DNA from: a virus | Direction: 5' to 3' (one strand) | Virus record (IMG/VR): IMGVR_UViG_3300030102_002890 | Location: 1 to 33,895 of that record | DNA length: 33,895 nucleotides | Part shown: positions 5,039-32,580 of the stretch, piece by piece | How the letters are laid out: each line of letters starts with the position of its first letter | How positions within the stretch are numbered: the stretch's first letter is position 1 | The notes under the pieces: generated by a model | Database searches by the model: none | Told to the model about the DNA's origin: nothing | Seen by the model: the letters and a program-made list of their open reading frames with translations, nothing else | Made by a program: the position numbers and the translations under genes

Positions 5039-5106
5039 GTCCGGCAAAGTACCAAGTCTGACAGGAAACGAAGGAACTTTTTTCAAGATTTTCTACCCAC
5101 CCCCCC

Positions 5107-5137
5107 TTGACAGGTGCTACCCCTGCGCTGGTATAAC
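5107..5137 (+). promoter_or_regulatory. sigma70-like promoter for the rightward recombination genes
   Basis: A perfect TTGACA at 5107-5112 and TATAAC at 5132-5137 are separated by 19 bases, slightly longer than optimal. The exonuclease gene starts about 35 bases downstream behind a strong ribosome-binding site. This is the only clear promoter I can see in the divergent gap 5039-5171; no equally good promoter is visible for the leftward operon. Confidence 0.6.
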
Positions 5138-5150
5138 CCCTAACAGCACC
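5113..5150. promoter_or_regulatory. possible operator: inverted and direct repeats around the -10 element
   Basis: GGTGCT at 5113-5118 and AGCACC at 5145-5150 form a 6-bp inverted repeat straddling the -10 box. ACCCCT is repeated at 5119-5124 and 5136-5141, 17 bases apart, inside it. Repeats overlapping a promoter suggest a repressor or activator site. The short arm length and the C-rich context make chance occurrence possible. Confidence 0.3.
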
Positions 5151-5171
5151 CCAGTCATAAGGAGGAATCTA

Positions 5172-6675: not shown

Positions 6676-6715
6676 TCCCCCCGGTAGTTGAGATGGCTAC
6701 CGGGGGGTATTTTAT
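6676..6715 (+). terminator. strong hairpin terminator between convergent blocks
   Basis: CCCCCCGGTAG (6676-6686) pairs with CTACCGGGGGG (6696-6706) around a nine-base loop, followed by TATTTTATT on the plus strand. It ends the rightward transcript. It also lies just after the stop of the giant leftward gene (6712), but on that strand the sequence after the stem is purine-rich with no U tract. It is therefore a better terminator for the plus strand than for the minus strand. Confidence 0.82.
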
Positions 6716-9700
6716 TCGTCGATCCGGCGTCGCGGCAGGGCAAGAGTTGCTGCACGGACAGCGCTGATTCGAGTCTGCGCTTCACCCATTCGAGCAATCG
6801 GCACATCTCTCTCGGTGAACTGCGTTGACTGCACCGTACGCTCAAGAGCATTAGCCTTGACTTCATACGGACGGAACACCCCACTCACCAGATCCTCGGT
6901 TAGATCCTCGCTGACGTAGTTGGCCTTGAGGATTGCACGCAACTCACCATCAGTGATGTTGAAGGCGCGCATGCTGCGCACGTGACTGTGCAACTGAACC
7001 TGCAGGGCACGACGGTTAGCATTGTAATACTGCACTGCATCTTCAATCTCACCCTGCGTGATTTCACCTTGGGTACGGATGACCCTGTTCATTCGTGCAC
7101 GCAACTCTCGGTCAAGCCGGTTGAACTCAGACACCTTGAACATGAACGCCTGCTTCGGATTGATTGTTTCAAACTTGAAGCCCGACAGTAACTGCATCAC
7201 TTGGGATGACAAGTCGTACCGCTTGCCGTAGTCATCAACATGGTCATTGGCTGCAAGCATCAGACGCTCAAAGGTCTTGACTGCACCCGGCATGGTTGCA
7301 CCGAACAAGTGCTCTCCTGCCTGACGAATAAACGATGCAGTGTCTGATCCCGGATCAAACAACGGCCTGCCCATCTCGTCCTGACCACGCAGCAGGTCAA
7401 CCAGTGCGCTGTATCCAATCTCTTTGCCAATGAACGGCCTGAAGATATGCTCAACAGCGTCAAACATTCTGTTGCTTATGGACTCGTCGTTGCGACCGAA
7501 CAGTGCAAGGAATGGCTGGCGGAAGTAGACGAACGGATCAACGTACCCATAGTTGATGAACGAAAGTTCACCACCTTCTTTGCGGTAGAACAAAAGCACA
7601 GAGTCCTTGTTCCAGAACGGCAGCATGCCACGCACTGCACGCTCTTCTTCTTCATCAACTCCTGCGATGCTACGCATAGCAGTAGCCAAGATTGTAGGCG
7701 CAACCATCAGCAGACCCATGCCCATCAGTCGAGAACGACCAATCTTGCGGACTGCAGGATTGTCGCTGGCAAGTTCCTTGCGCGTGATGGCGATGCGACC
7801 GATTGATGTCCTGATAAGTTCAGCGGTGAACGAGGGGAAGGTGCCAAGGAACGGGACGTAGCGCAGATACTTGATCGCCTCGGGCACACGACTGTATGTG
7901 GGCACGGTGTTGGTGACAATTTCTGCAGCCTCAGCCTTGAGCATATCGTCGTTGCGATTAGGATAAGCAGCACGCAATCGAGCCAATTCAATATCAAACG
8001 CGATGACCTTGAAGAAGTCATCCTGCGCTTTGTAAGCACCAGAGAATACGTCCAACACTTTGCCGCCAGCCCTGCGGATTTCTCCGAACCGGGACATGAC
8101 AGACTCCATATCGGAATCACCACTCGTCCCCCACAGTTGTTCAATCTCTGTGTAATCACTGGTGTCCACGACCCCGAGTTCCAGCAAATCTTGGTATCTG
8201 CGCTGCGCCTCCTTGTTGGGCTGCAGGAAAATACTGTTGCCCTGAGTCACGGCTTGCAGAGCCTGCTTGATTGACCGGCCAGAAGTGAAGATCTCATTCA
8301 GGTATCCGTTGCCAACCATGAAAGAAATGTTGCCGACCACGTTGCGCACGTGCGTTTCAGGAGACAGAACAGTCTTGCCAAACTTGACGGCTGCATTGAA
8401 GCGAAGAAGCAGGCGGACGATTGGGCCGCTGGTGTTGTAATCAGCAGTCTTCTTAGCCAGCAACTCAATAGACTCTTTGACCTCTGGCTCTGCATAAAGA
8501 CCCTTGAACGGACGCAACGGATCACTGTCTGCCAGAGAATCAAACGGCACCAGTTTGGCTGGCCTGTTCTCTTCGTTGCCACGGAACAAGAACCCTTCTT
8601 CAAGACCAAGTTCAACAAGGGACTGGTTGAACGAGAATGTTTCCAAAGATGTGATCATCTTGGTCACTGAGTTTGCGTAGTTTGCAGTGGGATCAGTGGA
8701 TTCACCCAAGAACGCGCGGTAAGACTGCACCAGTTCGTTGTTGCCCTCGTAGTCAAACGAGTCAAGAGCAGCACGTTCCTTCTGCAGTTTGTCAGTTTCT
8801 TGCCGATACTTCTTCTTGCTGATCTTCTTGGCGATCAACTTCTCGTCAAGGGCTTCTTGCTTCTTGTCAATCTTCGCAATGTCTTGCGCCTTGTCACGCT
8901 CAACAAGTTTGCGACGCATAAAGATGGTGCCAGCCTTACTGCCCCCGACTGCTGCAGAGAATGCCATCGGCGAATCGCTGGTCTCTGCACGGTACAGAAT
9001 GTCATCCATCAACTGCTCGATGATCTGTCCCTGTTGTTCTTCAGAGATGTATCGGTCGTTGCGTGTGCCATCTGGGTTGTAGGGATTTTCTTTTGCAGCC
9101 TCCTCAAAGAACTGGCGGTACGAATGGTGCAGTGCAGAGCGCATTCGGCTGCGCACCTCCGGGTCAACTTTGCTTGCCCAGTCCGGCTCGCTAAACGCTG
9201 CATACTTGCGAGTCAGGTAGAAGCCAATGTTGTCACTGATGACAGTAGCCATCTCTTCCGGCACCAAGCCGGTTGTCGCTGCGATTCGACGAGACAAACT
9301 GTCAATGTGCGAGCGCATGTTCTTGATGATCTCGCGCATCTCTGTGGTCAAGGGAACAGATGTGACGGCAGTATCAATATCTTCCACTGGCATCTGAAGC
9401 AGACGGTTCACTTCGCCCATAGCGATCTCTCGCTCTTCGCCTCTTCGGAACTTCTTGACTACCTTTCGCCACACCACTTGGTTTAGTTTGACTGCACGAT
9501 CAATCTCTGCACTGATCTTGCCGTCACGCTCCACGGACTTGCGAAGCACTGACGCGGGAATGCCCCGCTGATACGTGAGGTTCTTGACGGAGAAGCGCTT
9601 GACTCGTTTGGCAGCAGAGCGTAGTTGCTCAGTAGTGAGTGCCTTGACATCCCCAACACCACGGCTGAATGCAATGTTGACATCGTTGGTCATGCGACCA

Positions 9701-12700
9701 TCGCCGACTGCAGAGTACAACTGCTTGGCGTCGATGGCGATGTAACTGTATGAATCAGGGTTGACGATGGCTTCAGGGTATTTGCGTGCGAATTCTCTGA
9801 GATCTTTACGGATAACTTCGTCGCTTACGATATATCGACCTGAAATTCTGCCTCCAAGCAGCCCATCTTTAAGGGGCAGCCGTCGCTTCATCAAGTCTTT
9901 AATCTTTGCATAGTCCTGTTCTACTCTGTAGAAGTCAGCGTACGCCTCCATGTACTCTCTTGATTTCTTGTCGCCCCTCATCCGGTCAAGAGTTTCATTT
10001 AGCCGGTTGGTGTATGCAGAGTAGTCCACCCCCGGCTCGTACCTGTTCAGGTATCGCACACCGTCGAAACCTAAGTCTTTGAGAATGAACTGCATGAACT
10101 CGGGGTCCATGTGGTCAACTCTTCGAAGAGCCATGTAGTCAACGCCCGAGTATTGCTCTGCAAGTTTTTCAAAGTATGCTTCATACGAACCATGCACCTT
10201 GAGAATCTGCTTGTGCTTTGCAGAATAGTTCTTCTTGATCTCTGTTTCCAAAGCATCCATGAGAGAATCTAGTCGCCAAGTCGAAAGGTCCGGCAGAGTC
10301 ACTGGGTTTCGGATGTCTGCATACAGGGCGTACACGCGGGGATTAGTGTAATTTTGCACAGATCCCGAGAAGCCTCTTGCAACAGTTGGATTGTCAGAAA
10401 GGTGTATACCGATCTGGCTCATGTTTGGATCAAACACCAATGGGTCAGAGAACTCTTTTAATGTACCGTGGTACAGGATCTCCTTGACTTTGCTCTCACC
10501 CATCGCGGCCCTGAACCGTTTGGTGCGGCGCAGGTTGGGGTTGATGCGGGCCGAGTCAACCTCGTTGCCTTGGAAGAAGAAGTTGGTTGGGTCAACACCC
10601 TTGCTCTTACGGTTGGATTCCAACTTGGCTGCAAAATTGGCAATAGCATCTTTCTTTGGCCTGCGTGCAATCACAACACCATTCTTGCCGCCGACTACTT
10701 CAACCTCTTCGAAGTATTTCTTGATCTCTGGCAGGTAGAAGTCGTTGTCTTCTGCAACTTGATACGAGTCACCGTTGTGTGTGGTGCCCTTCTTCTTGGA
10801 GTTGTACATAGTGAAGTATGCAGTGCCCTCCAACTTGATAGCATCTGCAGCCTGCACGATTGGCAACTCACGCTGCGCTCTAGTTTCGATAACGTTCAAA
10901 ACGTTCGACAACGTTGCAGTGTCAGACTTGCCGCCGCGAATCATATTTGCAGCGTCGATGTTGTGATCTATGTCGCGGTTGAATGGGTCGTATACAACAT
11001 TCTTTACGCCATATCTGCGCTTCATTTCTTTCGTGATATCGTCGTACTTGCCGCCACCGATGTCAGCATTGATGCCGCCCCGCACAAACTTCACGATGTC
11101 TGCGTACCGCTTATTCATTATCTGCGGCATTTTCTGACTATACTTGATTGAGGTTGCTGCTGATCCTCGGCCTTGCGCAATCGTGCCGGGGTTGTACAAC
11201 GCAGAGACGCCCTTGCTAAAGCGCACCCGCGTCTGCGGGCTGCGTGATTCGGCAATCGCGTACACCGACATCTGATCGGTGGCATAAATACTAGATGACA
11301 TCTCAAGAACATCTAGCAGGTTGGCCATTGCATCTGACTCTGGCGCATACAGAGGGTGGCTTTTCTGCAAAGCGCGGGCGACATTCAGCGCGTCCTGCAC
11401 CGGGAACAGTGGCTCAGGCTTTACGTCATCCGCACTAATGTCTGCTGTGACGGCAAGTTGCCGCTTGACATCATCTGCAAACGCCTCGTTTGTCATTAGT
11501 TCCGCAACATACTCCCCAAGGTTTGTGTAGCCGTACATGGGGGCGGAGGCATTATTCTTTTCCAAGGCAACATATTCCAGCGCAGAATTGCCCTCTAGTT
11601 TCGGATTTGTTCTAAGGAAATCAAGAACGTCTTTGCGCCGTCTCAGATCTGCGTCCCTTTTGAAACTCATCTCTACTGAGTCATTGGGAGAAGGCGCAGG
11701 GAACGGCGGGCCTCCCAACACGCCATCCATGTTTGCCGCAGCCAAAGCCAGAACGTATGAGTTAGCCAAGTCAACTGTGGCAAGGAAAGATACAAATTGT
11801 TCAAGTTCTTCGTATGTCTGCTCTTCCTGCTCAGGAGTTTGATCGGAGTCAACATCGCCAATTCTCTCTTCAAGGTCATTGAGATAGGCAACAATGGATT
11901 TATCAAGACTGTCGCGCCGACCCTCTAGCGCCATGCGCAACTTCCGCATGGCAAGGAAGCGGTCTCCCATTTCCTTATTGCCTGCAACAATACTTCGCAA
12001 TGCGTCGGCTTCACCAAGAGCAACAGACGGCCCAATAATTTTTGTAAGTGTCGCAGTGCTGTCATACATTTCACGGAAAGTGAACTGGTGCGTGAGTTCG
12101 TGCACAAGAGTGTGAACTATGTTCTTTTGCAGAACACGTTGCACGTGTGGCGGCACATCTGCTGGAATATCTGAATATGTAACTTGCAGGTTTGCAACTG
12201 CAACTTCGCCGCCAGCAGTCTCCATGTCCATTTCAACACGGTTCAGGAAGAAGCCTGAGTTTCTTCTCGCCGCAGGGGCAAAAGCAGGTGATGTTACGTA
12301 GACCAACTGGTTTTGCAACTGGTTAGGGGCAAACATTGCAAACGCTTTGAGTCGATCTGCCAAGTCAGAATCAATTTGCTCTACCAGTTCAAGGGCGTTG
12401 CCGCTTGTTAGTTCGTCTGCTCGTATTGTGTATCCCACTGTTCCGAGCAACTCGGTCATCATGTCGGCGTAACGGTTACGCATGGCTTGCGATCCCATGC
12501 GGACCCGCTTCTTTTGCATGCCGTTTACGTGCCTTGCGACAACCGCTTTCGCTCTCTTCTTTAGAGCGGTTCCTCCATCAGTCAAGTCTCCAGCAATGAA
12601 GAGTTGTGCAAACGGATCGTTGGCAAGTCTGTCAACTGCCTTGTTAACTTTCCCCATAAGACCAGCCTCAAGGTCTGCTAGACCCAAGGGGTACATCATT

Positions 12701-15700
12701 GAGTTTTGGAATTCAAGACCTTCTTCAAGATATAAATCTCGCAAGTGTGAAAATACACTGTGCAGCCGGTACGCAGCCGAAACCGTTTTGCCTTCTCTAT
12801 AAATCTTGGTGCCAAGGCCGAGTTCATCAGCAAACACTTCTTCGGATGAGGTGTCCAACCCACCAAACAGGCCAGCCCTTCTGGACTTGAAGCCGAGCGT
12901 TCCCAACTCAAAGGGCACACTGGACGGGTCAACGCCACGGCTGAACCTTGGATCTTCTAGCACCTCGTCAATAGTTGACGGAGCATCCAAGATGTCTTGG
13001 TCAATACCCAGCGACTTTCCGCCGAGAGCCATACCTTGAGTCAGATCGCTGGTGCCAGTTCGCTCACTGTATTTCTCGGCCTCTCTTCTCCGGTTGAGCA
13101 TAGCCTCAAGGCGTGTCAAACCTTCGGGGTCAGAACTGGTTGGCGTAAATGCCAGCCGTGTACGCCTCATCAGAGAGTCGTACATTTCTCTGCGGGCTTT
13201 CTGGTCGGGCCGCAAACGCTTTGCTTTGCGATACGATCTGCCAAGCAAACGGGCAATACGTTGCCCTTTGGTTGCAGCGTCGGAAAGCAGTCCGGCAAAC
13301 GGGTTGTCTGTAGCAGACTCCATAACACCGCGTCCAACTGCAGTTGCACCACGGCCAATAAGTTGTCCAGCCTTGTAGGTTGCCACAACAGATGCCATCG
13401 CGGCAAGCATTGCGCCACTGCGTGCAGTCCTGCCGAGCACTTGTGTTTTTGCTAGAGCCTCGTCCAAAGTATCTTTGAAATCTTCAAGGGCGACACCTTT
13501 GAAGAGTTTGGCTTTCCGAAGCACCTCCTGATACTGAGACGCCTGCTTGTCCGCGTCTGGGTTGATGTCATCATCCATGCGTACTTCGGCAAGGATGTTG
13601 GCGATCTGCTCATAGCGACCAAAGATTGGGAAGTTGTCTGCAAAAGATTTGATGCCAAGTTTTTCGAGAACACCAGCAAACCACTTGTTGACATCCACAT
13701 AGTCAAGCCCACTAGTGAATGCAGCAAACATCTCACTGGCTTTGGCAGGGTTGTTTACCAGTATGATCTCGATGTAGTAAGCCATCGTTTCTTCAAGCAG
13801 ACGGTTTGTTGCACCGTCTTTTGCAAGTGGCAGATCTAAAGACCACTTGTAATCTGACAGTTCAAACAAGTTCTGCAGCAAACCCATCAACTCAGTTCGG
13901 TCAATAAATTCTGTGTCGAGGTTTATGTCCCGACCCAAAAGTTTTTCCAAAGCCTTTTTGAGTTCAGGCTCACTGGACAAAGCCTTAGCAAATCCAGCAA
14001 GCAGAGCGTCTTGGTCGCCGCTGAAGGCGTTACTGATAGCCTTCTTCATGTCCTCATCAGAGGCGTTGTCTACAAAAGTGTGCCACGCTTCGTGTGCGAT
14101 GACAGCCTGCAGTGCAGTTTGGATACCTGCTTTTTGTGCTTGCAACGTCTGTGCATGAATGACATAGATAGGCGCACCATCGACCGGAGTTGCCAAGAAC
14201 TCACGGCCTTCAGTGAAAGCACCGTCAACAAAAATCACAAAGATGCCGCGCGCGCGCAAGTGGTCTTGCAATCTTTGTGCAGCAGGACTCGGCGGTGCTA
14301 CAACCTTGCCACCCCCGAGGCCAATCTTCTGGAAGAATGCACTAAGCCTGCTGGTAGGTGCAGGCTCACTTACTCCTTCTTCTTTCGCCTCCGTGTCCGC
14401 ATCGGTAGCCTCCGAGGTTGCGCCTCGGGAGAATCGGACTGGGTCTTCACCCTCTTCGTAGTCTTCAATTTCTTCTTCAACATCTTCCTCTGGTGAAACT
14501 ACAGGTGGCAGTTCTTCGGATGCTTCGTCAGCGGCTTCTTCCAAGCCTTCTTCTGCACGCATTCCGTTGCGTAGCGTGTTCTCCCAGTCGGCGTACCCTT
14601 CGGCATTAGTGTCAGTGTCGCCAAACTGCTCCATGTAATTCTGGAATAAGACTTCGCGTAGGGCAAAACTTACATTGCCGTTCTCAAGCCAGTCCCGTAC
14701 GTCGTTGTCAGCAGAACTCTCGGCACCCTCTCTGCCCTCGCCCAGAGTGGTGAGTCCCTCGTACTCGTAATAGTCGGCAACCAGTTCCTCAAGAAAAGCC
14801 TCGGCTTCTTCTTCTGGGTTCGCCACCTCTTCAAAATCTGGGGTCGATTCTACTTCTGGGTCTGTAACTGTTTCGATGTCTGAACCGGCTGCCTCGGTGG
14901 CAACAGCCTGCTCTTCCGCTTCCCGCACACGCTTGATAGATTCTTTCGCCAGTCCAGCGAACGAGAGAAGTTCTGTTGCCGACATAGACTCAAAGAAATC
15001 AGCGAGTTCGTTTTGACCCATTGCACGGGCACGCTCAACAAACTTCTTGCCATCGACCTTGCCGCCATTGATGACCATTGACTCAACGATGAAGGCAACA
15101 ATCTCGGGGGCCACCGCTGCGAGTTCAACTTTCCTAAGACCAATGACTCCATCCCGTGAAAGTCCTGAAGGAGAAAGCGAGTAGGGAATGCTAGTGCTGG
15201 GGTCGCCAAAGATATCTGACAAATCCAGTTTGCCGTCACTGTTACGCATTGCGTCAGTAATGGCGTTGATCTGGTCTTTGCTCAACACGGAGTTGCCGTC
15301 CGCGTCTTTTAGTGCAGCCAAAAAATCGCCAGCCCGCTGGGGGTTGTTCAAGCCACGCAGGTGGTTAAGGACTGCGATAGTTCCCCTAACACTTGCACGG
15401 TTGCTAAACCTAGTTTGCTGCGTCAGTTGCTGGAGGCGCATGTGCCGCAGGTATGCAGCCTGTACTTCCTGCAGGTTGTCTTCAGTGACTTCTGGAACAG
15501 TACCGCCTTCGTAGTTAGCCGTAACGACTGGAATCATCGTGTCACCAACTGCGATGGGGTTGTGCCGCATCAACTCAACGAACGACATACTGGCACCCAC
15601 GGGTCCAGTGGGTCCACCCACAGCAGCAGCAACAAGCGCTTCCTTGAGGAGTTGTTGCATGTATTCGTCAGACCAAAAGTTGCCAAGAGATTCTGGATCT

Positions 15701-17238
15701 CTCCGCACATAAGTGGTAAACGCGCGGCGCACAACGCTGTCCAAAGATTCTTGGAAAGATTCTCGGGCTGCACCAGCAGCCAGTGAACTGGTCAACCCGG
15801 CAGCCGTTTTGCCCAAGCCACTCCTGACAAAGATGTCCATGTCGCGAGCCAGTGTCTTGGTAAGCAACGGCCCGAACCCGGGCACCCTTTGGATCAAACG
15901 ACCAAGGCCACCAGACGTTTGCTCTGTCAGGTACGTGATACCTGCAGCGACAAGCCCGTCTGTGAGGGCCATCTGCCTGCCCTCTTCAGACAGTTCACCA
16001 TTTTCGTCTACGAACCCTGCGGATTTGTAATACTTCTTGCGTTCTCTGAAGAACATAGCGCCTGAAAAACCTGCGCCGGTTACTGCGAACCCAACAAAGC
16101 CCAACTTGGCAGGAGCCAGAAGTACGGACACACCCAACTGCACCGCCATCTGTGCGCCACCTTGGCCGAAAGCAAAGGCAAAAGAATCCCGGTCTGCCGT
16201 AGACAAAGTTATGCCGAGGTTTTTCTCGACACGTTCAAGGTGCTGGTCTACTTTCTTTTCGACAGACTCCAGAGAGTAATTCAGCGCCGCTGTAGCACCT
16301 CTAAGTTGAGGGTTATCAAGTCGGTGCGCAATCCTGCTGTACGCTTCTCCAATAGTTTCGCGCTGCAGTGCGGCAGCGAAACTAGCCAGTGACGGCAAGT
16401 CTGCCGCAGCAAACTGAGTAACACCTGCAGCAGCCTTCTGCGTGAAGAAACTCAAATCCCTGAACTGCTGCTTGTAGTTGACAAGGTATTGACCAATGCC
16501 TGTCTCTGCAGCCACGTAACTTTCTGGGTCTTGGGTGAGGAACCGCTTGCGTGCGTTGATGCGCAGTTCTTCTTCACGTTGCACCGCAATCTGTTCTTCA
16601 AGAGTTGCAAGCGACTCAACCAAGTTATCAGGACTGAGGGCTAGTTCCTCTGGATCAAACAACCGTCGCGTGTACTGGCCCGGTGCAGATTCATCAAGAG
16701 ACTTTGCAATCTGCTCAAACTTTTCTTTGGTAATGACGTTGTCTTGGGGCAACATCCTAAGCACGGACTCATAGCCCGGCAGGACAGCAACATCTTCACG
16801 AAGAACAGAGCCGTCGTGACGCATGGTTTGTACGGCTACGCGAACACCTTGAGACGGATCGCGGGGCAACTTGTACCCCGGTCGCATCTTGTATCCCCGA
16901 GCAACAAAACTTTGTGGCCCACGCCCGAACTGGATGTCGGTGCCCGATGGCTCACCTCCAATCGCTTCAAGTCCGAGAGAGATTGGGTTGAATGTGCTTG
17001 TGCCTACGCGCTGGATGCCGCCCTCTTGGAAGGCAACACGAAAGTCGCGGGCTGCAGCGTCGGCGGCTAGTTTCTGCTGCGCACTTTGCAGCGTCTCGTC
17101 AAAGTCTTTTGGTACCTGCCTTGCAACATCAAGGGCAGCCCGAGACTGCTCGTTGAGTTCTTGGTCTACTTTGAAGTTTGCTAAGTCCGGGACTTTCGGC
17201 CCCTCCGGGGCGCTGCCAAATCCTAAATCGTTGCTCAT
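6712..17238 (-). CDS. giant polyvalent virion-type protein (two zincins, methyltransferase-like, ART-like domains)
   Basis: 3508 residues, roughly 390 kDa. ATG 17238 has AAGGA six bases upstream. Order: N-terminal region with long hydrophobic stretches (about 355-395, 425-500, 535-560), EF-hand-like loops near 645-680 and an acidic linker (about 780-930). Then come zincin 1 (HEAWH 1049-1053), a hydrophobic patch near 1270, zincin 2 (HELTH 1713-1717), a methyltransferase-like domain (ADIGGGKYDD from 2058) and an ART-like domain (YHGT 2256). The C-terminal region holds a coiled coil near 2800, SPETHVRNVVGN near 2960 and a hydrophobic segment near 3175. Multi-domain phage 'polyvalent proteins' with such domains are known and thought to enter the host with the DNA. 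Last late gene, where podophages keep ejection proteins. A virion location is inferred. Confidence 0.85.
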   Translation of the reverse strand: MSNDLGFGSAPEGPKVPDLANFKVDQELNEQSRAALDVARQVPKDFDETLQSAQQKLAADAAARDFRVAFQEGGIQRVGTSTFNPISLGLEAIGGEPSGTDIQFGRGPQSFVARGYKMRPGYKLPRDPSQGVRVAVQTMRHDGSVLREDVAVLPGYESVLRMLPQDNVITKEKFEQIAKSLDESAPGQYTRRLFDPEELALSPDNLVESLATLEEQIAVQREEELRINARKRFLTQDPESYVAAETGIGQYLVNYKQQFRDLSFFTQKAAAGVTQFAAADLPSLASFAAALQRETIGEAYSRIAHRLDNPQLRGATAALNYSLESVEKKVDQHLERVEKNLGITLSTADRDSFAFAFGQGGAQMAVQLGVSVLLAPAKLGFVGFAVTGAGFSGAMFFRERKKYYKSAGFVDENGELSEEGRQMALTDGLVAAGITYLTEQTSGGLGRLIQRVPGFGPLLTKTLARDMDIFVRSGLGKTAAGLTSSLAAGAARESFQESLDSVVRRAFTTYVRRDPESLGNFWSDEYMQQLLKEALVAAAVGGPTGPVGASMSFVELMRHNPIAVGDTMIPVVTANYEGGTVPEVTEDNLQEVQAAYLRHMRLQQLTQQTRFSNRASVRGTIAVLNHLRGLNNPQRAGDFLAALKDADGNSVLSKDQINAITDAMRNSDGKLDLSDIFGDPSTSIPYSLSPSGLSRDGVIGLRKVELAAVAPEIVAFIVESMVINGGKVDGKKFVERARAMGQNELADFFESMSATELLSFAGLAKESIKRVREAEEQAVATEAAGSDIETVTDPEVESTPDFEEVANPEEEAEAFLEELVADYYEYEGLTTLGEGREGAESSADNDVRDWLENGNVSFALREVLFQNYMEQFGDTDTNAEGYADWENTLRNGMRAEEGLEEAADEASEELPPVVSPEEDVEEEIEDYEEGEDPVRFSRGATSEATDADTEAKEEGVSEPAPTSRLSAFFQKIGLGGGKVVAPPSPAAQRLQDHLRARGIFVIFVDGAFTEGREFLATPVDGAPIYVIHAQTLQAQKAGIQTALQAVIAHEAWHTFVDNASDEDMKKAISNAFSGDQDALLAGFAKALSSEPELKKALEKLLGRDINLDTEFIDRTELMGLLQNLFELSDYKWSLDLPLAKDGATNRLLEETMAYYIEIILVNNPAKASEMFAAFTSGLDYVDVNKWFAGVLEKLGIKSFADNFPIFGRYEQIANILAEVRMDDDINPDADKQASQYQEVLRKAKLFKGVALEDFKDTLDEALAKTQVLGRTARSGAMLAAMASVVATYKAGQLIGRGATAVGRGVMESATDNPFAGLLSDAATKGQRIARLLGRSYRKAKRLRPDQKARREMYDSLMRRTRLAFTPTSSDPEGLTRLEAMLNRRREAEKYSERTGTSDLTQGMALGGKSLGIDQDILDAPSTIDEVLEDPRFSRGVDPSSVPFELGTLGFKSRRAGLFGGLDTSSEEVFADELGLGTKIYREGKTVSAAYRLHSVFSHLRDLYLEEGLEFQNSMMYPLGLADLEAGLMGKVNKAVDRLANDPFAQLFIAGDLTDGGTALKKRAKAVVARHVNGMQKKRVRMGSQAMRNRYADMMTELLGTVGYTIRADELTSGNALELVEQIDSDLADRLKAFAMFAPNQLQNQLVYVTSPAFAPAARRNSGFFLNRVEMDMETAGGEVAVANLQVTYSDIPADVPPHVQRVLQKNIVHTLVHELTHQFTFREMYDSTATLTKIIGPSVALGEADALRSIVAGNKEMGDRFLAMRKLRMALEGRRDSLDKSIVAYLNDLEERIGDVDSDQTPEQEEQTYEELEQFVSFLATVDLANSYVLALAAANMDGVLGGPPFPAPSPNDSVEMSFKRDADLRRRKDVLDFLRTNPKLEGNSALEYVALEKNNASAPMYGYTNLGEYVAELMTNEAFADDVKRQLAVTADISADDVKPEPLFPVQDALNVARALQKSHPLYAPESDAMANLLDVLEMSSSIYATDQMSVYAIAESRSPQTRVRFSKGVSALYNPGTIAQGRGSAATSIKYSQKMPQIMNKRYADIVKFVRGGINADIGGGKYDDITKEMKRRYGVKNVVYDPFNRDIDHNIDAANMIRGGKSDTATLSNVLNVIETRAQRELPIVQAADAIKLEGTAYFTMYNSKKKGTTHNGDSYQVAEDNDFYLPEIKKYFEEVEVVGGKNGVVIARRPKKDAIANFAAKLESNRKSKGVDPTNFFFQGNEVDSARINPNLRRTKRFRAAMGESKVKEILYHGTLKEFSDPLVFDPNMSQIGIHLSDNPTVARGFSGSVQNYTNPRVYALYADIRNPVTLPDLSTWRLDSLMDALETEIKKNYSAKHKQILKVHGSYEAYFEKLAEQYSGVDYMALRRVDHMDPEFMQFILKDLGFDGVRYLNRYEPGVDYSAYTNRLNETLDRMRGDKKSREYMEAYADFYRVEQDYAKIKDLMKRRLPLKDGLLGGRISGRYIVSDEVIRKDLREFARKYPEAIVNPDSYSYIAIDAKQLYSAVGDGRMTNDVNIAFSRGVGDVKALTTEQLRSAAKRVKRFSVKNLTYQRGIPASVLRKSVERDGKISAEIDRAVKLNQVVWRKVVKKFRRGEEREIAMGEVNRLLQMPVEDIDTAVTSVPLTTEMREIIKNMRSHIDSLSRRIAATTGLVPEEMATVISDNIGFYLTRKYAAFSEPDWASKVDPEVRSRMRSALHHSYRQFFEEAAKENPYNPDGTRNDRYISEEQQGQIIEQLMDDILYRAETSDSPMAFSAAVGGSKAGTIFMRRKLVERDKAQDIAKIDKKQEALDEKLIAKKISKKKYRQETDKLQKERAALDSFDYEGNNELVQSYRAFLGESTDPTANYANSVTKMITSLETFSFNQSLVELGLEEGFLFRGNEENRPAKLVPFDSLADSDPLRPFKGLYAEPEVKESIELLAKKTADYNTSGPIVRLLLRFNAAVKFGKTVLSPETHVRNVVGNISFMVGNGYLNEIFTSGRSIKQALQAVTQGNSIFLQPNKEAQRRYQDLLELGVVDTSDYTEIEQLWGTSGDSDMESVMSRFGEIRRAGGKVLDVFSGAYKAQDDFFKVIAFDIELARLRAAYPNRNDDMLKAEAAEIVTNTVPTYSRVPEAIKYLRYVPFLGTFPSFTAELIRTSIGRIAITRKELASDNPAVRKIGRSRLMGMGLLMVAPTILATAMRSIAGVDEEEERAVRGMLPFWNKDSVLLFYRKEGGELSFINYGYVDPFVYFRQPFLALFGRNDESISNRMFDAVEHIFRPFIGKEIGYSALVDLLRGQDEMGRPLFDPGSDTASFIRQAGEHLFGATMPGAVKTFERLMLAANDHVDDYGKRYDLSSQVMQLLSGFKFETINPKQAFMFKVSEFNRLDRELRARMNRVIRTQGEITQGEIEDAVQYYNANRRALQVQLHSHVRSMRAFNITDGELRAILKANYVSEDLTEDLVSGVFRPYEVKANALERTVQSTQFTERDVPIARMGEAQTRISAVRAATLALPRRRIDE
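9658..9672 (-). repeat. linker motif copy 4 (AFSRG, residues 2523-2527)
   Basis: Sits directly after the ART-like domain, preceded by DVNI and followed by V. This is the position where I recall DIRFSR-type strings ending ART-PolyVal domains in other phage proteins. Confidence 0.65.
9679..10491 (-). other. ADP-ribosyltransferase-like (ART-PolyVal type) domain within the giant protein
   Basis: Residues about 2250-2520. ILYHGTLKEF (YHGT 2256-2259), GIHLSDNPTVARGF (from 2277), YALYADIRNPVTLPDL, DLGFDGVRYLNRYEPG and SYIAIDAKQLYSAVGDGRM follow the usual order of the phage ART-PolyVal family. Such domains would transfer ADP-ribose from NAD to host proteins. The H of YHGT and the Ser/Asn strand are present. 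The catalytic Glu is probably in the RYEPG segment but is not certain. Confidence 0.68.
10639..11151 (-). other. class I SAM-methyltransferase-like domain within the giant protein
   Basis: Residues about 2030-2200. ADIGGGKYDD (2058-2067) is a motif-I glycine-rich loop. VVYDPFNR gives the acidic motif II. TATLSNVLNVIE fits a motif-IV-type strand and helix, and a late strand runs through GVVIARR. The substrate is unknown: DNA protection against restriction is the role suggested for methylases in polyvalent proteins, but a protein or RNA target is equally open. Confidence 0.62.
11209..11223 (-). repeat. linker motif copy 3 (RFSKG, residues 2006-2010)
   Basis: Lies between zincin domain 2 and the methyltransferase-like domain. 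Preceded by TRV and followed by V. A possible degenerate further copy, KSKGVDP (2211-2217, from base 10608 leftward), lies between the methyltransferase-like and ART-like domains. Confidence 0.65.
11839..12321 (-). other. zincin-like metallopeptidase domain 2 within the giant protein
   Basis: Residues about 1640-1800. IVHTLVHELTHQFTF carries HExxH at 1713-1717. VALGEADALR downstream has a Glu about 30 residues after the motif that could complete the metal site. The surrounding sequence differs from domain 1, so this is a second family member and not a tandem copy. Confidence 0.65.
12934..12948 (-). repeat. linker motif copy 2 (RFSRG, residues 1431-1435)
   Basis: Lies between zincin domain 1 and zincin domain 2. 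Preceded by EDP, as in copy 1, and followed by VDP. Confidence 0.7.
13699..14361 (-). other. zincin-like metallopeptidase domain 1 within the giant protein
   Basis: Residues about 960-1180. AQRLQDHLRARGIFVIFVDG leads to TALQAVIAHEAWHTFVDN, giving the HExxH metal site at 1049-1053. LLEETMAYYIE (Glu1149/Glu1150) about 96 residues later could give the third ligand, as in gluzincin-type peptidases. All expected zinc ligands are present, so it may be active. The domain edges are estimates. Confidence 0.7.
14422..14436 (-). repeat. linker motif copy 1 (RFSRG, residues 935-939)
   Basis: Follows a long acidic stretch and precedes zincin domain 1. Preceded by EDPV. Confidence 0.7.
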
Positions 17239-17247
17239 TGTATTTCC

Positions 17248-19176
17248 TTATCGTGGCGAAAACGCTTGACCAGTTGTTGCGACTGCAACAGGATTGGCTT
17301 TTCCCGCAGCCAATGTTGATTCTTTTGCCTGTTGTTCCGCTTGGAATTCAGCCTCGCGGCTAACTGCACGCTGTCCAGACTGTGCGTAGATAGTAAGCAG
17401 CCGGTTGCCAATGTCTCGGATGTTAGACTTGAATGCTGCGTCCAAATCGCGCTGGTGCTGTGGGGCATTTACAAATGCTTCGTACTCTTCAGTTGTAACT
17501 ATGCTTTGCTCTTGCGGGTTTGGTGGACGGAACTCTGACGGGTTGGCAGCAAGGGCTTTGTATGAAACGTCATACCCACCAGTCTCGGTAATATCTTTTC
17601 CGGCTTCGAGTTCACGGCCCATCATGGTCAGCGGCAACTCCATTGCGGCGCTGCCCTGACCAACGGTTGGCGTGCGTGGATTCACGCGACGCTCAACTCT
17701 TCCAGAACCTTGCGCGGTTTGCGGAGTGCTGGCCTGCGTCAAAGGTGGCGGCTTTTCACCGTGTGTTCTCTCGTACAAGATTGCACTGCGCGCCTCTGGT
17801 GGGTACATTTGCAACTCACGCAAAGTGATTGGGTTAGGCGCGCCGGGGTTCATAATTCGACCTTGCTCCAACTCGCGATTGATGCTGTTGCTCAATCGCT
17901 CCATCTCCGCCTCAACAGCGACCAGAGCCATCTGCTGCGGAGCAGTGCGTTCGTCAAACATATCTATTGCTTCGAGCCGTGTGATCACTGTGCCATCTGG
18001 CTTTTTCATGCCGACCACTGATTCAATAAACGTGTCAGCCTGCGACAAGTGTTGCACTAACAGTTCGCGCCGGGCGTGGTTGCGGTCGTATGCCAGTTGC
18101 ATAGGCAGCACGGCATCCTGTGTGGCAGACTGAATGTGGTGCTCGGTCATGCGGGCACGCGCAAAGTTTTCGTAACTCATCATCACTGGCCTGTTAGGGC
18201 CATTGGGGTACAAGCCCTGTGCAGCGTTTTCATCAAAGGTTTTTATCAACGCAGCGGTTTGTTGTTGATATGCGGCAAACTGCTGCTGGAGCATGCTGCC
18301 ACCCTGCGCTGTGGCTGGATTGGATGCCTCTCTGTTTTGCCTGTTTGTTTGCACAGTCTGCTGGTGGCCCACATCTAGGGCTTGAAACTTTTCCTCCAGT
18401 TTCTGTGCAAATACACCAGTATCCAAAACCAGTTTGTTCTGGGCTTCTTGCAAACGCTGTACTGCTTCGGCTTGGGTAGCAACTGCCTGCGCACTCTGCA
18501 TACGCTCCTGCAAGTCTCGCGCTTGCCCTTGCAGTCCGAGCAGCGCTTCAGTACGCATGTCCTCGTCTAGTGATGTATCGGTGTTGACAGCGTCCATTTC
18601 ACGCTGCAACTTCTGCACATCGCCAAGCATCGCAGTGTCGCCAGTAGATCCTGCGTACCGTTGCACGGCGCTGATAATCGACGGCATGCTTTGGATGACA
18701 GTCTTTTGGCCTGCGGTCGGGCCAGTGCTGGTTTCTGGCACAACAAATCGGTTTTGCTCTGCGCTAAACTCTACGTCAGTTAGGCCGTCAATTTCTGAGT
18801 CATAGCGTGCAAACTTGCCACCGCCCATATTGATGATCTGGTCATCCTTAAGGCCCGACGTATCTACCTCACCGCCATCGGTGTACTTGGCATCGACGGG
18901 CTTGTTGAGATCGGGAGCATCTGGAACAGTGAACTCATCCTGCTGTGCAACGGTTCGGAATGCGCCTGACCTTCCACGCTTGCGCTCACGTGCCTCACGG
19001 GCTGCTTTACGTGCAGCATCGCGTGCAGACCTGTTTGCTGCAGCGGCTTGGTCGCGTATATTTTGATCATAGTCACTGCTATCAAGTCCGGCTTTTCCGT
19101 CGAGATTTCGGTTGACCTCTCTCATGCCCCTCACATCGATGCGCGTTCTAAGTTGTTCCTGAGTTAACTTAGCCAT
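17248..19176 (-). CDS. 642-residue coiled-coil protein, candidate internal virion/ejection protein
   Basis: Unrecognised family. ATG 19176 has AGAGG five bases upstream. The N-terminal 60-90 residues are very basic and helical (RDAARKAAREARERKRGR). The middle (about 200-400) is Gln/Ala-rich heptad-like helix (MQSAQAVATQAEAVQRLQEA, QQQFAAYQQQTAALI). The C-terminal part is Pro-rich then helical and ends GQAFSPR. It lies nine bases upstream of the giant gene, so the two are co-translated neighbours. Helical, Gln-rich proteins next to giant proteins at the end of a late operon recall internal core proteins of podophages (T7 gp14-16 type), but no sequence match is claimed. A short tape measure is an alternative. 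Confidence 0.6.
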   Translation of the reverse strand: MAKLTQEQLRTRIDVRGMREVNRNLDGKAGLDSSDYDQNIRDQAAAANRSARDAARKAAREARERKRGRSGAFRTVAQQDEFTVPDAPDLNKPVDAKYTDGGEVDTSGLKDDQIINMGGGKFARYDSEIDGLTDVEFSAEQNRFVVPETSTGPTAGQKTVIQSMPSIISAVQRYAGSTGDTAMLGDVQKLQREMDAVNTDTSLDEDMRTEALLGLQGQARDLQERMQSAQAVATQAEAVQRLQEAQNKLVLDTGVFAQKLEEKFQALDVGHQQTVQTNRQNREASNPATAQGGSMLQQQFAAYQQQTAALIKTFDENAAQGLYPNGPNRPVMMSYENFARARMTEHHIQSATQDAVLPMQLAYDRNHARRELLVQHLSQADTFIESVVGMKKPDGTVITRLEAIDMFDERTAPQQMALVAVEAEMERLSNSINRELEQGRIMNPGAPNPITLRELQMYPPEARSAILYERTHGEKPPPLTQASTPQTAQGSGRVERRVNPRTPTVGQGSAAMELPLTMMGRELEAGKDITETGGYDVSYKALAANPSEFRPPNPQEQSIVTTEEYEAFVNAPQHQRDLDAAFKSNIRDIGNRLLTIYAQSGQRAVSREAEFQAEQQAKESTLAAGKANPVAVATTGQAFSPR

Positions 19177-19178
19177 GA

Positions 19179-28176: not shown

Positions 28177-29241
28177 TTAGGACACCTTACTCAAGAGGAA
28201 GTTGCGGCGACGGTCAGTACACATGAAGTTGAGAGTGGAGTCCACGAACACCTGCATAGTGGTGTGCTGACCCGGAACTTGGGTCGGACCTTCTTCTCGC
28301 ATGTACTCACCAGAGAGGAACACGGGCTTGAGAACACCCCAGTTGATACCGTACACAGGGTCGGTACCGTTGGTGGTGTCGGACTCAAGGTGTGGCACCC
28401 ACATCACAGGAACTTGACGGAACACAAGTTGACCGTCTTTCGATGCAATGTCGTTGCCAAGGTTATCGTTTTGTGCTTCGAGGGCTTCCTCAAGGCGACC
28501 GATAACGTTGTAGTTGGTGTAGTAGCCATAGTTGCTGCCGGTGTTGTAGTCGGCAACTGGAACTGGTGGCTTGAAGTTGGTAAACAACGATGCCTTACGC
28601 CACTTGCGAACGAGGTCAGTCTTGTTGACTTGATCGTAGTCCGCGAAGTAGTTACGCCACGCAGAGTTTTCCGACAGGCTGGAGTCGATGCCAGCAGAGT
28701 CATTGAACTGCGTACCGTCTTGGGCAAATGGGTTCTTACCAGTAAATCCATTGTCACCGTCAGTGCCCTTGGCAACGTGGTATGCAATGCCGTATGGGTG
28801 GGTGGTGTCGCTGGTGGTGGGAGGCGCTTGCCAGAAGTTCTTCTCCATCAACTCTGCAAGAGAGATCATGGCGTCCGTACGACGAATCTTGACGAGTTCG
28901 ACGATACGAGCGGGCGTTGCGTTGAATTGCACCTCACGACGCTCGAAAGCGTAGTTGGTGGTGCAGTGACGCCACGGAATGTTTGCCGTGGTCATAACGT
29001 CAGCAATGTTGACATTGTCACTCTCAAAGAGGCCCACGTTCTTGGCTGCACCGGATTGCTTCAGCATGATGTTGTACTGAATCGCTGTACCGGATTGGTA
29101 CTGAACCTTGTATTGGTCCAGCAACTTTCCAAGAGCATGGTATTCCTGCAGCGTGGATGCAAGTTCAGTGAACTTGAGACGCCCCAGATCCTTGAGGGTC
29201 ACAGTAATCAGGTCTTGAATCTGATCGGCTTGTAGTGCCAT
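28177..29241 (-). CDS. major capsid protein
   Basis: A 354-residue protein. ATG 29241 has AAGGA seven bases upstream. It is placed after the scaffold-like gene and before a decoration gene. The sequence IQDLITVTLKDLGRLKFTEL, YKVQYQSGTAIQYNIMLKQS, CTTNYAFERREVQFN and VELVKIRRTDAMISLAELME resembles phage major capsid proteins of the HK97-fold type: an N-terminal helix, an E-loop-like hairpin and a spine helix. Aromatic/Gly loops follow (WQAPPTTSDTTHPYGIAYHV). No delta-domain protease cleavage site could be seen. Assignment rests on position, size and overall resemblance. Confidence 0.72.
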   Translation of the reverse strand: MALQADQIQDLITVTLKDLGRLKFTELASTLQEYHALGKLLDQYKVQYQSGTAIQYNIMLKQSGAAKNVGLFESDNVNIADVMTTANIPWRHCTTNYAFERREVQFNATPARIVELVKIRRTDAMISLAELMEKNFWQAPPTTSDTTHPYGIAYHVAKGTDGDNGFTGKNPFAQDGTQFNDSAGIDSSLSENSAWRNYFADYDQVNKTDLVRKWRKASLFTNFKPPVPVADYNTGSNYGYYTNYNVIGRLEEALEAQNDNLGNDIASKDGQLVFRQVPVMWVPHLESDTTNGTDPVYGINWGVLKPVFLSGEYMREEGPTQVPGQHTTMQVFVDSTLNFMCTDRRRNFLLSKVS

Positions 29242-29273
29242 CTGTAAATCCTTCTAAGAAAAACCAGAGTCGC

Positions 29274-30194
29274 TTACTCTTCACCGCCGAATCCGATGCC
29301 AGCCTCTTCCATATACTTCCGAACAGAAGCCCGTGCAGCCGCCTCCGGCGACTGTGGCTTGCCATTCTTCTGTGTAGGACGGCTAACAAACTTGCCTCGG
29401 CGTTGGGCAACGGTTGATTCAGTGGATGCTTGCTTGGCGGCGGCTACATCGTCTGCGAACAGACCGTTCAGTGCACGGGTAAACAGAGTCTGCTCGTCAG
29501 GCACCGCCCGACCTGCAGCCTCATACCCGTTCGCTAGAACGTTCATCTCTTCGAGAACTTGCACCCGGCGCGTAAGTGCACCAGAATCATCAGACAGAGA
29601 TTCCGTCGATCCGGTGCCGAGCAGCGACTCGAAGCCCGGTCCTAGATCGGAGACAAAGGAGTCGAATTCGTTTACGACTGCCTTCTCTGCCTGATTGTCC
29701 AAGAAGGAGTTGTACTGCCCAAGTTGGGATTCCAACCCCTCAATGCGGTCCCGGTACTGTTTGTCCATCTGTTCAAGGACAGGCTTCAGTTCATCCGGGA
29801 CATTATCAAGGTCGATGCCCTCAAACTGCTGCCGCTCTTCTGATCCGGCACCACGGCCTTCCAAAATGCGGACAGTTCGCTCAAGGGCTTCGACTGTGCC
29901 AAGATCTTCGATGTCGGATTCCGTAAGACCAACCTCTGCAGCACGCACAGCAAGGTCTTCCAGTTCCTCGTCCATCTCGGACTCTTCGTATTCTTCGTAA
30001 CTTTCACCCTCTTCTTCTTCGCAATCGCCATCTTCGCAGTCTTCTTCGGACTCTTCTTTGGCATGCGCAGCCTTGCGCTCTTCAATGTATTCAGCGAGAC
30101 GCTCGGCAACCTCATCCTCTTCGTGGTCAACGGGTTCTTCGACCACTGGTGCAGAGGATTCGACTTCTTCAGTTGGTTCTAGTTCTTCAGACAT
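29274..30194 (-). CDS. acidic scaffold-like head assembly protein
   Basis: A 306-residue protein; ATG 30194 has an AGAGAGG site five bases upstream. Residues 1-95 are extraordinarily acidic (long runs of Glu/Asp, e.g. EEDCEDGDCEEEE). Helical and coiled-coil-like segments follow (LERTVRILEGRG, PVLEQMDKQYRDRIEGLESQ). The tail is basic (AAARASVRKYMEEAG). Acidic, helical, immediately upstream of the capsid gene: these are the marks of a phage scaffolding protein, which binds capsid subunits through a C-terminal helix-turn-helix during procapsid assembly. No protease domain is visible. Confidence 0.72.
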   Translation of the reverse strand: MSEELEPTEEVESSAPVVEEPVDHEEDEVAERLAEYIEERKAAHAKEESEEDCEDGDCEEEEGESYEEYEESEMDEELEDLAVRAAEVGLTESDIEDLGTVEALERTVRILEGRGAGSEERQQFEGIDLDNVPDELKPVLEQMDKQYRDRIEGLESQLGQYNSFLDNQAEKAVVNEFDSFVSDLGPGFESLLGTGSTESLSDDSGALTRRVQVLEEMNVLANGYEAAGRAVPDEQTLFTRALNGLFADDVAAAKQASTESTVAQRRGKFVSRPTQKNGKPQSPEAAARASVRKYMEEAGIGFGGEE

Positions 30195-30216
30195 ATAGCC
30201 TCTCTAATTGTCGTAT

Positions 30217-30459
30217 TTACCAATTCTTGCAAGACCAATATCTTGCTTTTGTTTTTGGCCCGGGGTTGTCACAGTTATGACGGGCACGGAAGTTTTTGCG
30301 GCGACCCGGGATGTTTTTCTTGATTTTCATGTTCGGATCACCGAACCGGACAATCTTCACCTTGTCGCCGTCTTTGACGTACACCTTAAACTTTTTGCGT
30401 TCGCCGGGCGTACGCATCACCCTGTTGAGTGGCGGGGTCTTCTTTTTCTTCTCAGCCAT
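30217..30459 (-). CDS. small basic conserved phage protein near head genes
   Basis: An 80-residue protein from ATG 30459, which has GGAGG eight bases upstream; it overlaps the preceding stop by eight bases. It is strongly basic (EKKKKTPPLNRVMRTPGERK). The conserved-looking end FGDPNMKIKKNIPGRRKNFR...HNCDNPGPKTKARYWSCKNW I recall from short proteins next to head genes in diverse phages. Two cysteines in HNCDN and WSCK may bind metal. Assembly or DNA-binding function is possible; none is established. Confidence 0.62.
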   Translation of the reverse strand: MAEKKKKTPPLNRVMRTPGERKKFKVYVKDGDKVKIVRFGDPNMKIKKNIPGRRKNFRARHNCDNPGPKTKARYWSCKNW

Positions 30460-30814
30460 CCCCGTAACCTCCGCTGCGGTCATGCAGGTTAAATGCTTTC
30501 AGATATCTTGCACGGTGCCCACGGCTAGTAAAGATTGGCCTGCCAGCCCCGTCATAGTTGGTCGGCACGCCTTTCTTCTCTGCATGAGCCTTGTACGCAG
30601 GAATATCATCGGTGTGACAAGCAGCCCCTTCGCTATGGATTGGGTTGCGCCACAGGTCGTTGACCGTTGAGTGGCCGCCCATCTCGACATCCACTCGACG
30701 CTTAAGGGTTTCGCCATCAGCCACTGGGTTCTTGTCAAACTTCTCCATTTCGGCAATGGTCATAATCCGCTCGACAATAGATCCGTCAGGTTTTTCGTAG
30801 CAATAAGTTGGCAT
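30452..30814 (-). CDS. conserved small phage protein with MPTYxY N-terminus
   Basis: A 120-residue protein; ATG 30814 overlaps the portal stop (TAATG). The opening MPTYCYEKPDGSIVER resembles the FmdB-type N-terminus, but the paired CxxC knuckles of that family are absent. The later HSEGAACHTDDIPAYKAHAE and GRPIFTSRGHRARYLKAFNL with RSGGYGDG resemble a conserved phage protein I associate with the portal-scaffold interval. Unknown role, probably in assembly. Confidence 0.6.
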   Translation of the reverse strand: MPTYCYEKPDGSIVERIMTIAEMEKFDKNPVADGETLKRRVDVEMGGHSTVNDLWRNPIHSEGAACHTDDIPAYKAHAEKKGVPTNYDGAGRPIFTSRGHRARYLKAFNLHDRSGGYGDG

Positions 30815-32580
30815 TAGCCTGTGGGCCTTTCTACTGCTGCTGCTTCAGATGGTTGCACGCCGGGGCCGCCCCCGCCCGCCATCATCATTCGCATCATGGC
30901 ATCATCTTGACCCCGTGGGGTGGCCCCGGGGCGGTTGGTACGTACGATCTCAGTCTGCTTCTGAGTTGGATCTTGGACCTCTTGCGGCTGCGTTGCGTCC
31001 ACAGCCACCCCCTTGAAGATGTCCTTGAGTTCAGGCAACTGAGAATACTGGGCAACCATCTGGATCAACTTCGCCCCGTCAATAGACACGCCCTGCTGCT
31101 GCATAGCGGGCAGCAGCGGTGCAATAAACGTGTTCATCAACTCGCGGATTGACTGGAGTTTCTCGCCCGGGGTCTGAGACAGCACGCTGTATGGGTCAAC
31201 CTCGAAGTTGAAGTCGTACAGATCGGCTTCGATCTTCTTGCCACTAAAGACAAACGGCACCTTGATGTCGGTGCCCTTGACGGTTTGCTCCAACTCCAAC
31301 TCGCTGATGTTGTCGTTGTAGATGAAGTTGCCCACAGCCTTGCAGACGCTGGCAGTGAAGTTAACAGCAGACTCCTGCATGTCAGCCAGACGCTGCGAGG
31401 CTGACTCGGAAATCAATTTGTCCTGCCCCACCGTGCCAGACTGCGGGCCGAGGCCGCCGAGAGCGTCAAGGTTGCCGCCGTAGTAGTTGAACAGGTTCTT
31501 GAGTTGCAGGATGAACGCAAGGTTTTGCTGGTCAATGCCGCCAAACTTGTAGGTTTGGATGTTCTGCGGGTCATCCATGCGGATAACCTCACCGTCAGAA
31601 CTGGTCTGTACGTTCTTTGCGTCCTGCTCTGCAGACCCACGGTAGCCGACCACATCCTTTTGCCGCTCTGCCTGTCTGCCCAACTTGCGGAACACACGGT
31701 TGGCGAGGTCGTGCAGGTCGATCAGTGATGCCACGGGTGGCAACGGCATGGTGTTGCCGGGCACATCAGTGAAGGACAGGAAGTGATATGGCCCAGCCTC
31801 TGGCCCATCCCACTCGATTTCCCTGATCTTGCGCTCCGGCATACCGTTCTCGCCAGCAGCAAAGGTGCAAATCTTATTGGTGCGGGGCAGCCAGATCTCC
31901 CACAACTCTGCCATGTCGGTGTCTTGCCCGCCGTGATAGATATCGGACTGTCCAATTGCGGCAGCACGAATGTCGCCATCTGAGTTGTACAGAGTCTTGC
32001 GGACCTCCGGGATCATATCGGGGTCCATGTAGATGTCGCTGTCACGCAGCGCTTCAATCGGAACACGGAATCGGTGGCCCATGTACGAGCACTCAGACAA
32101 ATCGCGTGCAGACATATCGTGCACCCAATCGTCAAGGTCCACGGTCTCTGCAAAAGGTTGCCCTGCATCATGCAGGAACCCGCGCATGGGCACCTGTGCA
32201 GGCTCGGTAACGCCCACCTTGACAATGCCAATACTAAAAAGCGCGTCAATAACGGCAAGTCTCAGGGTTTTGGCAACTTCCATCTCACGCAAAACGTGGT
32301 TTAGCGCCAGTTCCATCTTGGCTGCCTGCGGGGCAATGGCCTGCGTGCGCGGTCTGACGTAGACATTTGGCTCATTGCCCACCAACTGGCGGGAATACGT
32401 GGAGATAAACAGTTCCAGCATGTTGACTGGCACCCGATCACGCGAACCAGTGTCGGAATAGTTGCGACCAACAAACTCTCGGATGGCCCGAACGCGCTTT
32501 TCGCGGTAGGGCTGCAGCCTTCGCCTGCTTGACTGGATCGACTTACGAAGTTTGTCCAAGTTATCTCCGTTGTAGTTCAC
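30814..32580 (-). CDS. portal protein
   Basis: A 588-residue protein with a GTG 32580 start that overlaps the terL stop by four bases. It lies directly after terL, as expected. The N-terminal region (LQPYREKRVRAIREFVGRNY, ISTYSRQLVGNEPNVYVRPR, LALNHVLREMEVAKTLRLAV) is typical of phage portal proteins. So is the clip/stem-type middle (LIDLHDLANRVFRKLGRQAE, MDDPQNIQTYKFGGIDQQNL). The last 70 residues are low complexity (Gly, Met, Pro, Gln). It forms the dodecameric DNA entry ring on the capsid vertex. Size is in the normal range for podovirus-type portals. Confidence 0.82.
   Translation of the reverse strand: MNYNGDNLDKLRKSIQSSRRRLQPYREKRVRAIREFVGRNYSDTGSRDRVPVNMLELFISTYSRQLVGNEPNVYVRPRTQAIAPQAAKMELALNHVLREMEVAKTLRLAVIDALFSIGIVKVGVTEPAQVPMRGFLHDAGQPFAETVDLDDWVHDMSARDLSECSYMGHRFRVPIEALRDSDIYMDPDMIPEVRKTLYNSDGDIRAAAIGQSDIYHGGQDTDMAELWEIWLPRTNKICTFAAGENGMPERKIREIEWDGPEAGPYHFLSFTDVPGNTMPLPPVASLIDLHDLANRVFRKLGRQAERQKDVVGYRGSAEQDAKNVQTSSDGEVIRMDDPQNIQTYKFGGIDQQNLAFILQLKNLFNYYGGNLDALGGLGPQSGTVGQDKLISESASQRLADMQESAVNFTASVCKAVGNFIYNDNISELELEQTVKGTDIKVPFVFSGKKIEADLYDFNFEVDPYSVLSQTPGEKLQSIRELMNTFIAPLLPAMQQQGVSIDGAKLIQMVAQYSQLPELKDIFKGVAVDATQPQEVQDPTQKQTEIVRTNRPGATPRGQDDAMMRMMMAGGGGPGVQPSEAAAVERPTG

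Follow-up and report, generated by a model that had tools for sequence, protein, structure and literature searches.

A short FSR-type peptide at module joints of a giant marine phage protein and of other phage polyvalent proteins

P0001, a giant protein of 3,508 aa from a marine phage, carries a short peptide, FSRG, between its modules, and we conclude with considerable confidence that the looser pattern [FY]S[RK] is a mark of module C-termini in phage polyvalent proteins at large. Since an FSR-type peptide stands at the module ends of many unrelated phage proteins, we regard the signal as real. Our tentative reading is that FSRG is a recognised joint whose most likely role is that of a processing site, with most of the doubt attached to the cleavage step.

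Results

The 33,895 bases of the window analysed here form a virus record in IMG/VR. P0001 is encoded on its minus strand by a single 10,527-nt ORF beginning at ATG (6712..17238), in agreement with the one 10.5-kb gene of the initial annotation, and its C terminus matches virion structural proteins. The gene is the last of a minus-strand operon that runs from terminase (32577-33893), portal (30814-32580) and major head protein (28177-29241), a head module (28177..33893), through further virion genes to a 642-aa protein (17248..19176) and P0001. The position of the 642-aa protein directly upstream recalls that of N4 gp51 before gp50, with no sequence similarity detected between it and gp51. The N4 virion RNA polymerase gp50 (Schitoviridae) likewise has about 3,500 aa, an HExxH block near a long C-terminal block, and a place as the last head-operon gene, immediately preceded by a gene of about 640 codons. 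The T7-type RNA polymerase domain of such proteins was not found in P0001, which has no polymerase match in Pfam, PHROGs or PDB sequences, and P0001 and gp50 share no significant sequence similarity (phmmer).

Elsewhere in the window, a recombinase-like ORF at the left end (217-921; phrog_95 integrase, phrog_125 invertase) points to a temperate phage or to an inversion system. A SNF2/DEAD-type helicase adjoins a RecE-like exonuclease (DUF3799, phrog_412) at 3109-6002, and a protein with a Concanavalin A-like lectin domain (Laminin_G_3; 26008-26784), which matches virion structural proteins, is possibly a host-binding part. FSRG occurs in none of the 21 other ORFs checked in the window.

P0001 can be divided into six blocks, all coordinates referring to the minus strand. 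The N-terminal block (residues 1-930; 14449..17238) has a hydrophobic stretch at 364-392 in a hydropathy scan and an acidic tail, and tblastn finds no relatives of it in phages. Two zincin-like blocks follow, at residues about 960-1250 (13489..14361; HEAWH at 1049) and about 1440-2000 (11239..12921; HELTH at 1713). Their assignment rests on the two HExxH motifs and on downstream Glu-rich helices read from the sequence, LLEETMAYYIE in block 1 and a GEYVAEL-type helix in block 2. Both helices are kept in the homologue L001, together with the HExTH of block 2; the blocks have no profile match in Pfam, and a Glu in the conserved helices is the candidate third zinc ligand. The methyltransferase-like block (residues about 2030-2210; 10609..11151) has relatives in Vibrio phages and in a 485-kb phage, and carries strings that read as SAM-methyltransferase-like (ADIGGGKYD, VYDPF). 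Its fold matches are mostly to SAM methyltransferases and are not significant (best methyltransferase E 0.1), and in a low-confidence model the predicted fold stops at residue 2210. The ADP-ribosyltransferase (ART)-like block (residues about 2240-2522; 9673..10521) matches ART-PolyVal (PF18760) over 2254-2366 with 24.1 bits (E 6.6e-5), and L001 scores 29.3 bits, both below the gathering score of 31.2 bits; the P0001 block nevertheless aligns with other ART-PolyVal domains through the last strand. Of the domain calls in the initial annotation, the ART-like one has weak support from a sub-cut-off Pfam score and further support from the alignment of its end; methyltransferase-like rests on distant matches and non-significant folds, and the zincins on HExxH and helices.

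The C-terminal block (residues about 2530-3508; 6715..9651) is structural, a virion domain that matches phrog_22602 over 2833-3439 (E 3e-44). Its last 640 residues are common to Pseudoalteromonas phage Y3, Cellulophaga phages phi19:3 and phi18:3, Pelagibacter phage HTVC027P and others, and for the phi18:3 relative, gp123, the annotation states detection in virions by MS/MS. P0001 therefore joins several effector-type domains in one long phage polypeptide (a weak ART, a methyltransferase-like block and two HExxH blocks), as polyvalent proteins do.

The joint motif of P0001 reads RFSRG at residues 935-939 (14422..14436) and 1431-1435 (12934..12948), RFSKG at 2006-2010 (11209..11223) and AFSRG at 2523-2527 (9658..9672), with a degenerate KSKG at 2211-2214 (10597..10608). 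These copies, like the two HExxH motifs, lie at exactly the residues first reported. The four matches to [FY]S[RK]G compare with a mean of 0.16 in composition shuffles (P = 5e-5), and the C-terminal block has no joint motif. The homologue L001 is 59% identical and starts at about P0001 residue 1114, so that the joints at 1431, 2006, 2211 and 2523, and not 935, can be compared; all four are kept, as RFSRG, RFSRG, RYSRG and AYSRG. The RYSRG of L001 identifies KSKG, previously flagged as a possible degenerate copy, as a genuine joint that has decayed in P0001. Searches of viral contigs with P0001 queries gave no close homologue besides L001. AFSRG at 2523 aligns with L075, L082, L134 and L111 and corresponds by homology to the DIRFSR with which ART-PolyVal domains end; the statement in the initial annotation that DIRFSR-type strings end these domains was correct. 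Two AlphaFold models of P0001 (mean pLDDT 36 and 44) carry little weight. The motif is not buried in a folded domain in them, all copies lying in unstructured stretches outside predicted secondary structure, including coil at 1431, 2006 and, at very low confidence, 935; this placement fits a linker and excludes little.

We then compared polyvalent proteins more widely. Scans of viral contigs seeded with a zincin-LPD1 alignment and an ART alignment gave 160 loci, which with a few further proteins yielded 114 nonredundant polyvalent proteins (346,955 residues). Records from Shewanella, Pseudoalteromonas, Acinetobacter and Endozoicomonas were used, and matches in Stx-converting phages were left out. 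Module ends were taken as the ends of BLAST alignments between polyvalent proteins (breakpoints), which are independent of domain libraries. Across the 114 proteins, chosen via two domain families whose ends give many of the motif copies, breakpoint density is 7.6 times the protein average at [FY]S[RK] and 17.7 times at [RK][FY]S[RK], against 0.3-1.2 times at permuted tripeptides and 0.83 times at random positions. With similar contexts collapsed, the value for [FY]S[RK] is 3.75, against 0.4-1.1 for permutations. When 3,855 tripeptides are ranked by context-averaged breakpoint density, YSR comes 3rd, FSK 6th, LFS 8th, FSR 9th and LYS 10th. The effect rises with the number of partners supporting a breakpoint: among breakpoints with at least 30 partners, 34% have [FY]S[RK] and 62% [FY]S, as opposed to 2.3% and 9% of random positions. 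Contexts beyond the two seed families include TQGQPLFSR, GLPMFSK, TVTITAKFSR and TGPIVFSR. Among phages that bear the motif, Shewanella phage Y11 has joints at 1882, 2377 and 2395, and Pseudoalteromonas phage Y3 has one at 2836. The placement of the motif between modules, as first proposed for P0001, is therefore right and broader than was claimed.

The signal is one of placement and not of abundance. FSR ranks 10 of 4,747 in the zincin-selected set and drops to 85 of 6,178 in a larger set with stricter collapsing, so simple abundance was rejected as an explanation. The third position is loose, with L, V, Q and T also following [FY]S, and the motif is not avoided inside domains (152 interior [FY]S[RK] against 95-137 for permutations). 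Many zincin-LPD1 domains of L058-L137 carry FSR directly after the active-site motif (HALDNYFSR), away from any module end, which confounds motif counts. We also considered whether the residues that follow the motif form a dialect specific to each phage; this gave P 0.024 without L177 and P 0.12 without L177 and P0001, and a non-edge control was raised as well (P 0.034), so we do not rely on it.

The peptide is more a property of the joint than of the fold, being mostly absent from standalone domains. Of 50 embedded zincin-LPD1 domains, 27 finish with [FY]S[RK] (38 with [FY]S), as against 1 of 24 standalone domains (Fisher P 2e-5), which are chromosomal, CLCA_X-like relatives that stop short of the motif. 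At ART ends, [FY]S is found in 31 of 56 embedded and 1 of 7 standalone domains (P 0.05), the latter finishing in DITK, DISK or similar; both P values ignore kinship within each class. These comparisons bear on a structural cap, a local fold feature in which F/Y would pack on the strand or helix that ends the domain before it, with S-R as closure. F/Y is indeed the best conserved position at zincin-LPD1 ends and part of the terminal DIR[FY] stretch of ART. Standalone members of both families nonetheless end without the motif, the enrichment covers S and R as well as F/Y, and the motif is common to domains of apparently different fold, and we consider a cap very improbable.

What is conserved at the joints is the peptide and not the DNA. 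The four joints of P0001 are written TTC TCC CGA GGC, TTC AGC CGT GGC, TTT AGC AAG GGC and TTC AGC CGT GGT, and across the family 125 edge copies comprise 63 distinct 9-mers. Because codons differ between copies in P0001, in L177 and in the family, a DNA-level repeat or recent duplication was rejected as the origin of the motif. A passive seam would also place the peptide at module ends: shuffled cassettes would include the last strand and a few linker residues, leaving FSR as an unrecognised remnant. Such a seam would agree with the many copies that two families (zincin-LPD1 and ART) supply at their ends, with a slight excess of same-Ser-codon pairs within proteins (29 against 19.7 expected), and with a raw FSR abundance that, placement apart, is weakly raised under strict context collapsing. 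Against it, unrelated domains end in the same peptide, Ser codon boxes differ within one protein, and P0001 and L001 keep their copies amid strong divergence. The zincin-block-2 stretch is 44% identical between them with both flanking joints still present, and their alignment diverges after each joint, with an indel at two joints, one of them straight after 1431. On balance we think a passive seam unlikely.

The clearest joint repeats are those of L177. Its giant protein (3,160 aa; L177:6080-15562) has three ART domains, and at eight joints, with differing Ser codons, FSR is followed within a few residues by an FGPVEF-like peptide; FSR peptides also occur in the adjacent genes on both sides (L177:5093-6073 and 16199-20596). 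A second repeated peptide, K-P-x-x-GQ-x-x-FDF-like, is present as well. FSR and GPVEF stand at variable distances from each other, a pattern compatible with docking motifs no less than with cut sites. In a docking joint nothing would be cut, and the motif would be bound by a partner, be it scaffold, chaperone, portal or ejection machinery, that takes charge of each module in packaging or tail threading. The repeats in L177 and its neighbours would fit such a role, as would the tolerance of interior [FY]S[RK] and the lack of domain-end motifs in zincin proteins of the ArdC type, which do not belong to the virion. However, the motif is also missing from standalone ART and zincin-LPD1 proteins, though these are possibly not packaged, and P1 DarB is packaged via an N-terminal signal and not by joint motifs (PMC9024508). 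We judge docking a serious but fairly unlikely alternative.

The initial annotation had P0001 processing itself with its own zincins, and the comparisons disfavour this. At ART ends, [FY]S is as much a feature of proteins without HExxH (8 of 13) as of those with it (25 of 49), so no association between motif and HExxH is seen there. HExxH matches in L177 are only HEGSH, in linkers ahead of the ART domains, and L177 thus has no recognisable zincin; nor are interior copies avoided. Zincin processing of polyvalent proteins was proposed in 2017 with P1 DdrB as the example, in a paper that also noted N4 vRNAP as packaged unprocessed (PMC5512222), and N4 vRNAP, which is giant, is ejected and contains an HExxH domain, has been purified and imaged at full length (PMC12633501). 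The joint motif is absent from N4 gp50, including its linkers 907-1007 and 2102-2123, and from P1 DarB and DdrB, which makes these three proteins uninformative on cleavage. Distant homologues of the P0001 C-terminal block often have HExxH and lack the joint motif.

In phage Y3, an ART plus C-terminal unit is encoded by a separate gene, so such modules can exist as separate chains. At this locus (L003:543-13917; WPJ21802 and WPJ21803), the giant gene ends in a truncated copy of the NIGKYLNRSYKAFDDEKWFSKIPTN stretch, which is intact in the next gene, where ART and structural block stand alone; the pair looks like a recent split or duplication.

Discussion

We propose that P0001 is a polyvalent protein of the phage type: a chain of several enzymes, carried in the virion and ending in a structural block, that probably enters the host together with the phage DNA. 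Its FSRG peptides are module joints, which a second protein would recognise; the likeliest candidate is a trans-acting protease, of phage or host, that would separate the modules at head maturation or after entry; we do not assign the cut to P0001's own zincins. For a recognised joint speak the shuffle test, conservation in L001, breakpoint density, the contrast of embedded and standalone domains, the 63 distinct 9-mers and the L177 repeats. Against a processing site stand the lack of zincin dependence, the interior copies, the loose third position, full-length N4 vRNAP, the motif-less relatives of the C-terminal block and motif-less P1 DarB and DdrB. We accordingly rank a recognised joint, as a processing site in trans, first, a docking motif second and a passive seam third. 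Cutting at a short motif is already known from phage head and internal proteins; in SPN3US, gp245 cleaves several of them after AXE (PMC10052503). That motif is a different one, and its cuts remove propeptides instead of separating enzyme modules; [ASG]xE forms no consistent site at the P0001 joints. On a wider version, [FY]S[RK] would act as a general release code: a phage or host protease would use it to free effectors from one injected chain, in a variant particular to each phage (FSRG in P0001, FSR-GPVEF in L177). We regard this version as speculative and fairly unlikely.

P0001 resembles the polyvalent proteins described by Iyer et al. in 2017 in its great length and its many domains, combining zincins, ART-PolyVal and a methyltransferase-like domain with a virion structural block, although most of its domains score under Pfam cut-offs; the text of that paper mentions neither FSR/YSR nor a linker motif (PMC5512222). 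The same overall plan is found in giant prophage proteins of the LPD38 type and in those named 'PLxRFG domain-containing protein' in NCBIfam, and in an Acinetobacter example both the zincin and the ART domain are followed by YSR. PLxRFG is, however, a distinct motif inside the C-terminal block, and P0001 has no NCBIfam match. In open-licence papers, a search for FSRG with phage returned nothing relevant, and the family-wide joint motif is apparently new and undescribed.

Many phages have polyvalent-type proteins, and the question they pose is how one huge chain gives several working enzymes in the host. The joint motif is a cheap handle on this question: it predicts where modules start and end, which aids annotation of the domains between joints, and it tells mass spectrometry which new N-termini to seek.
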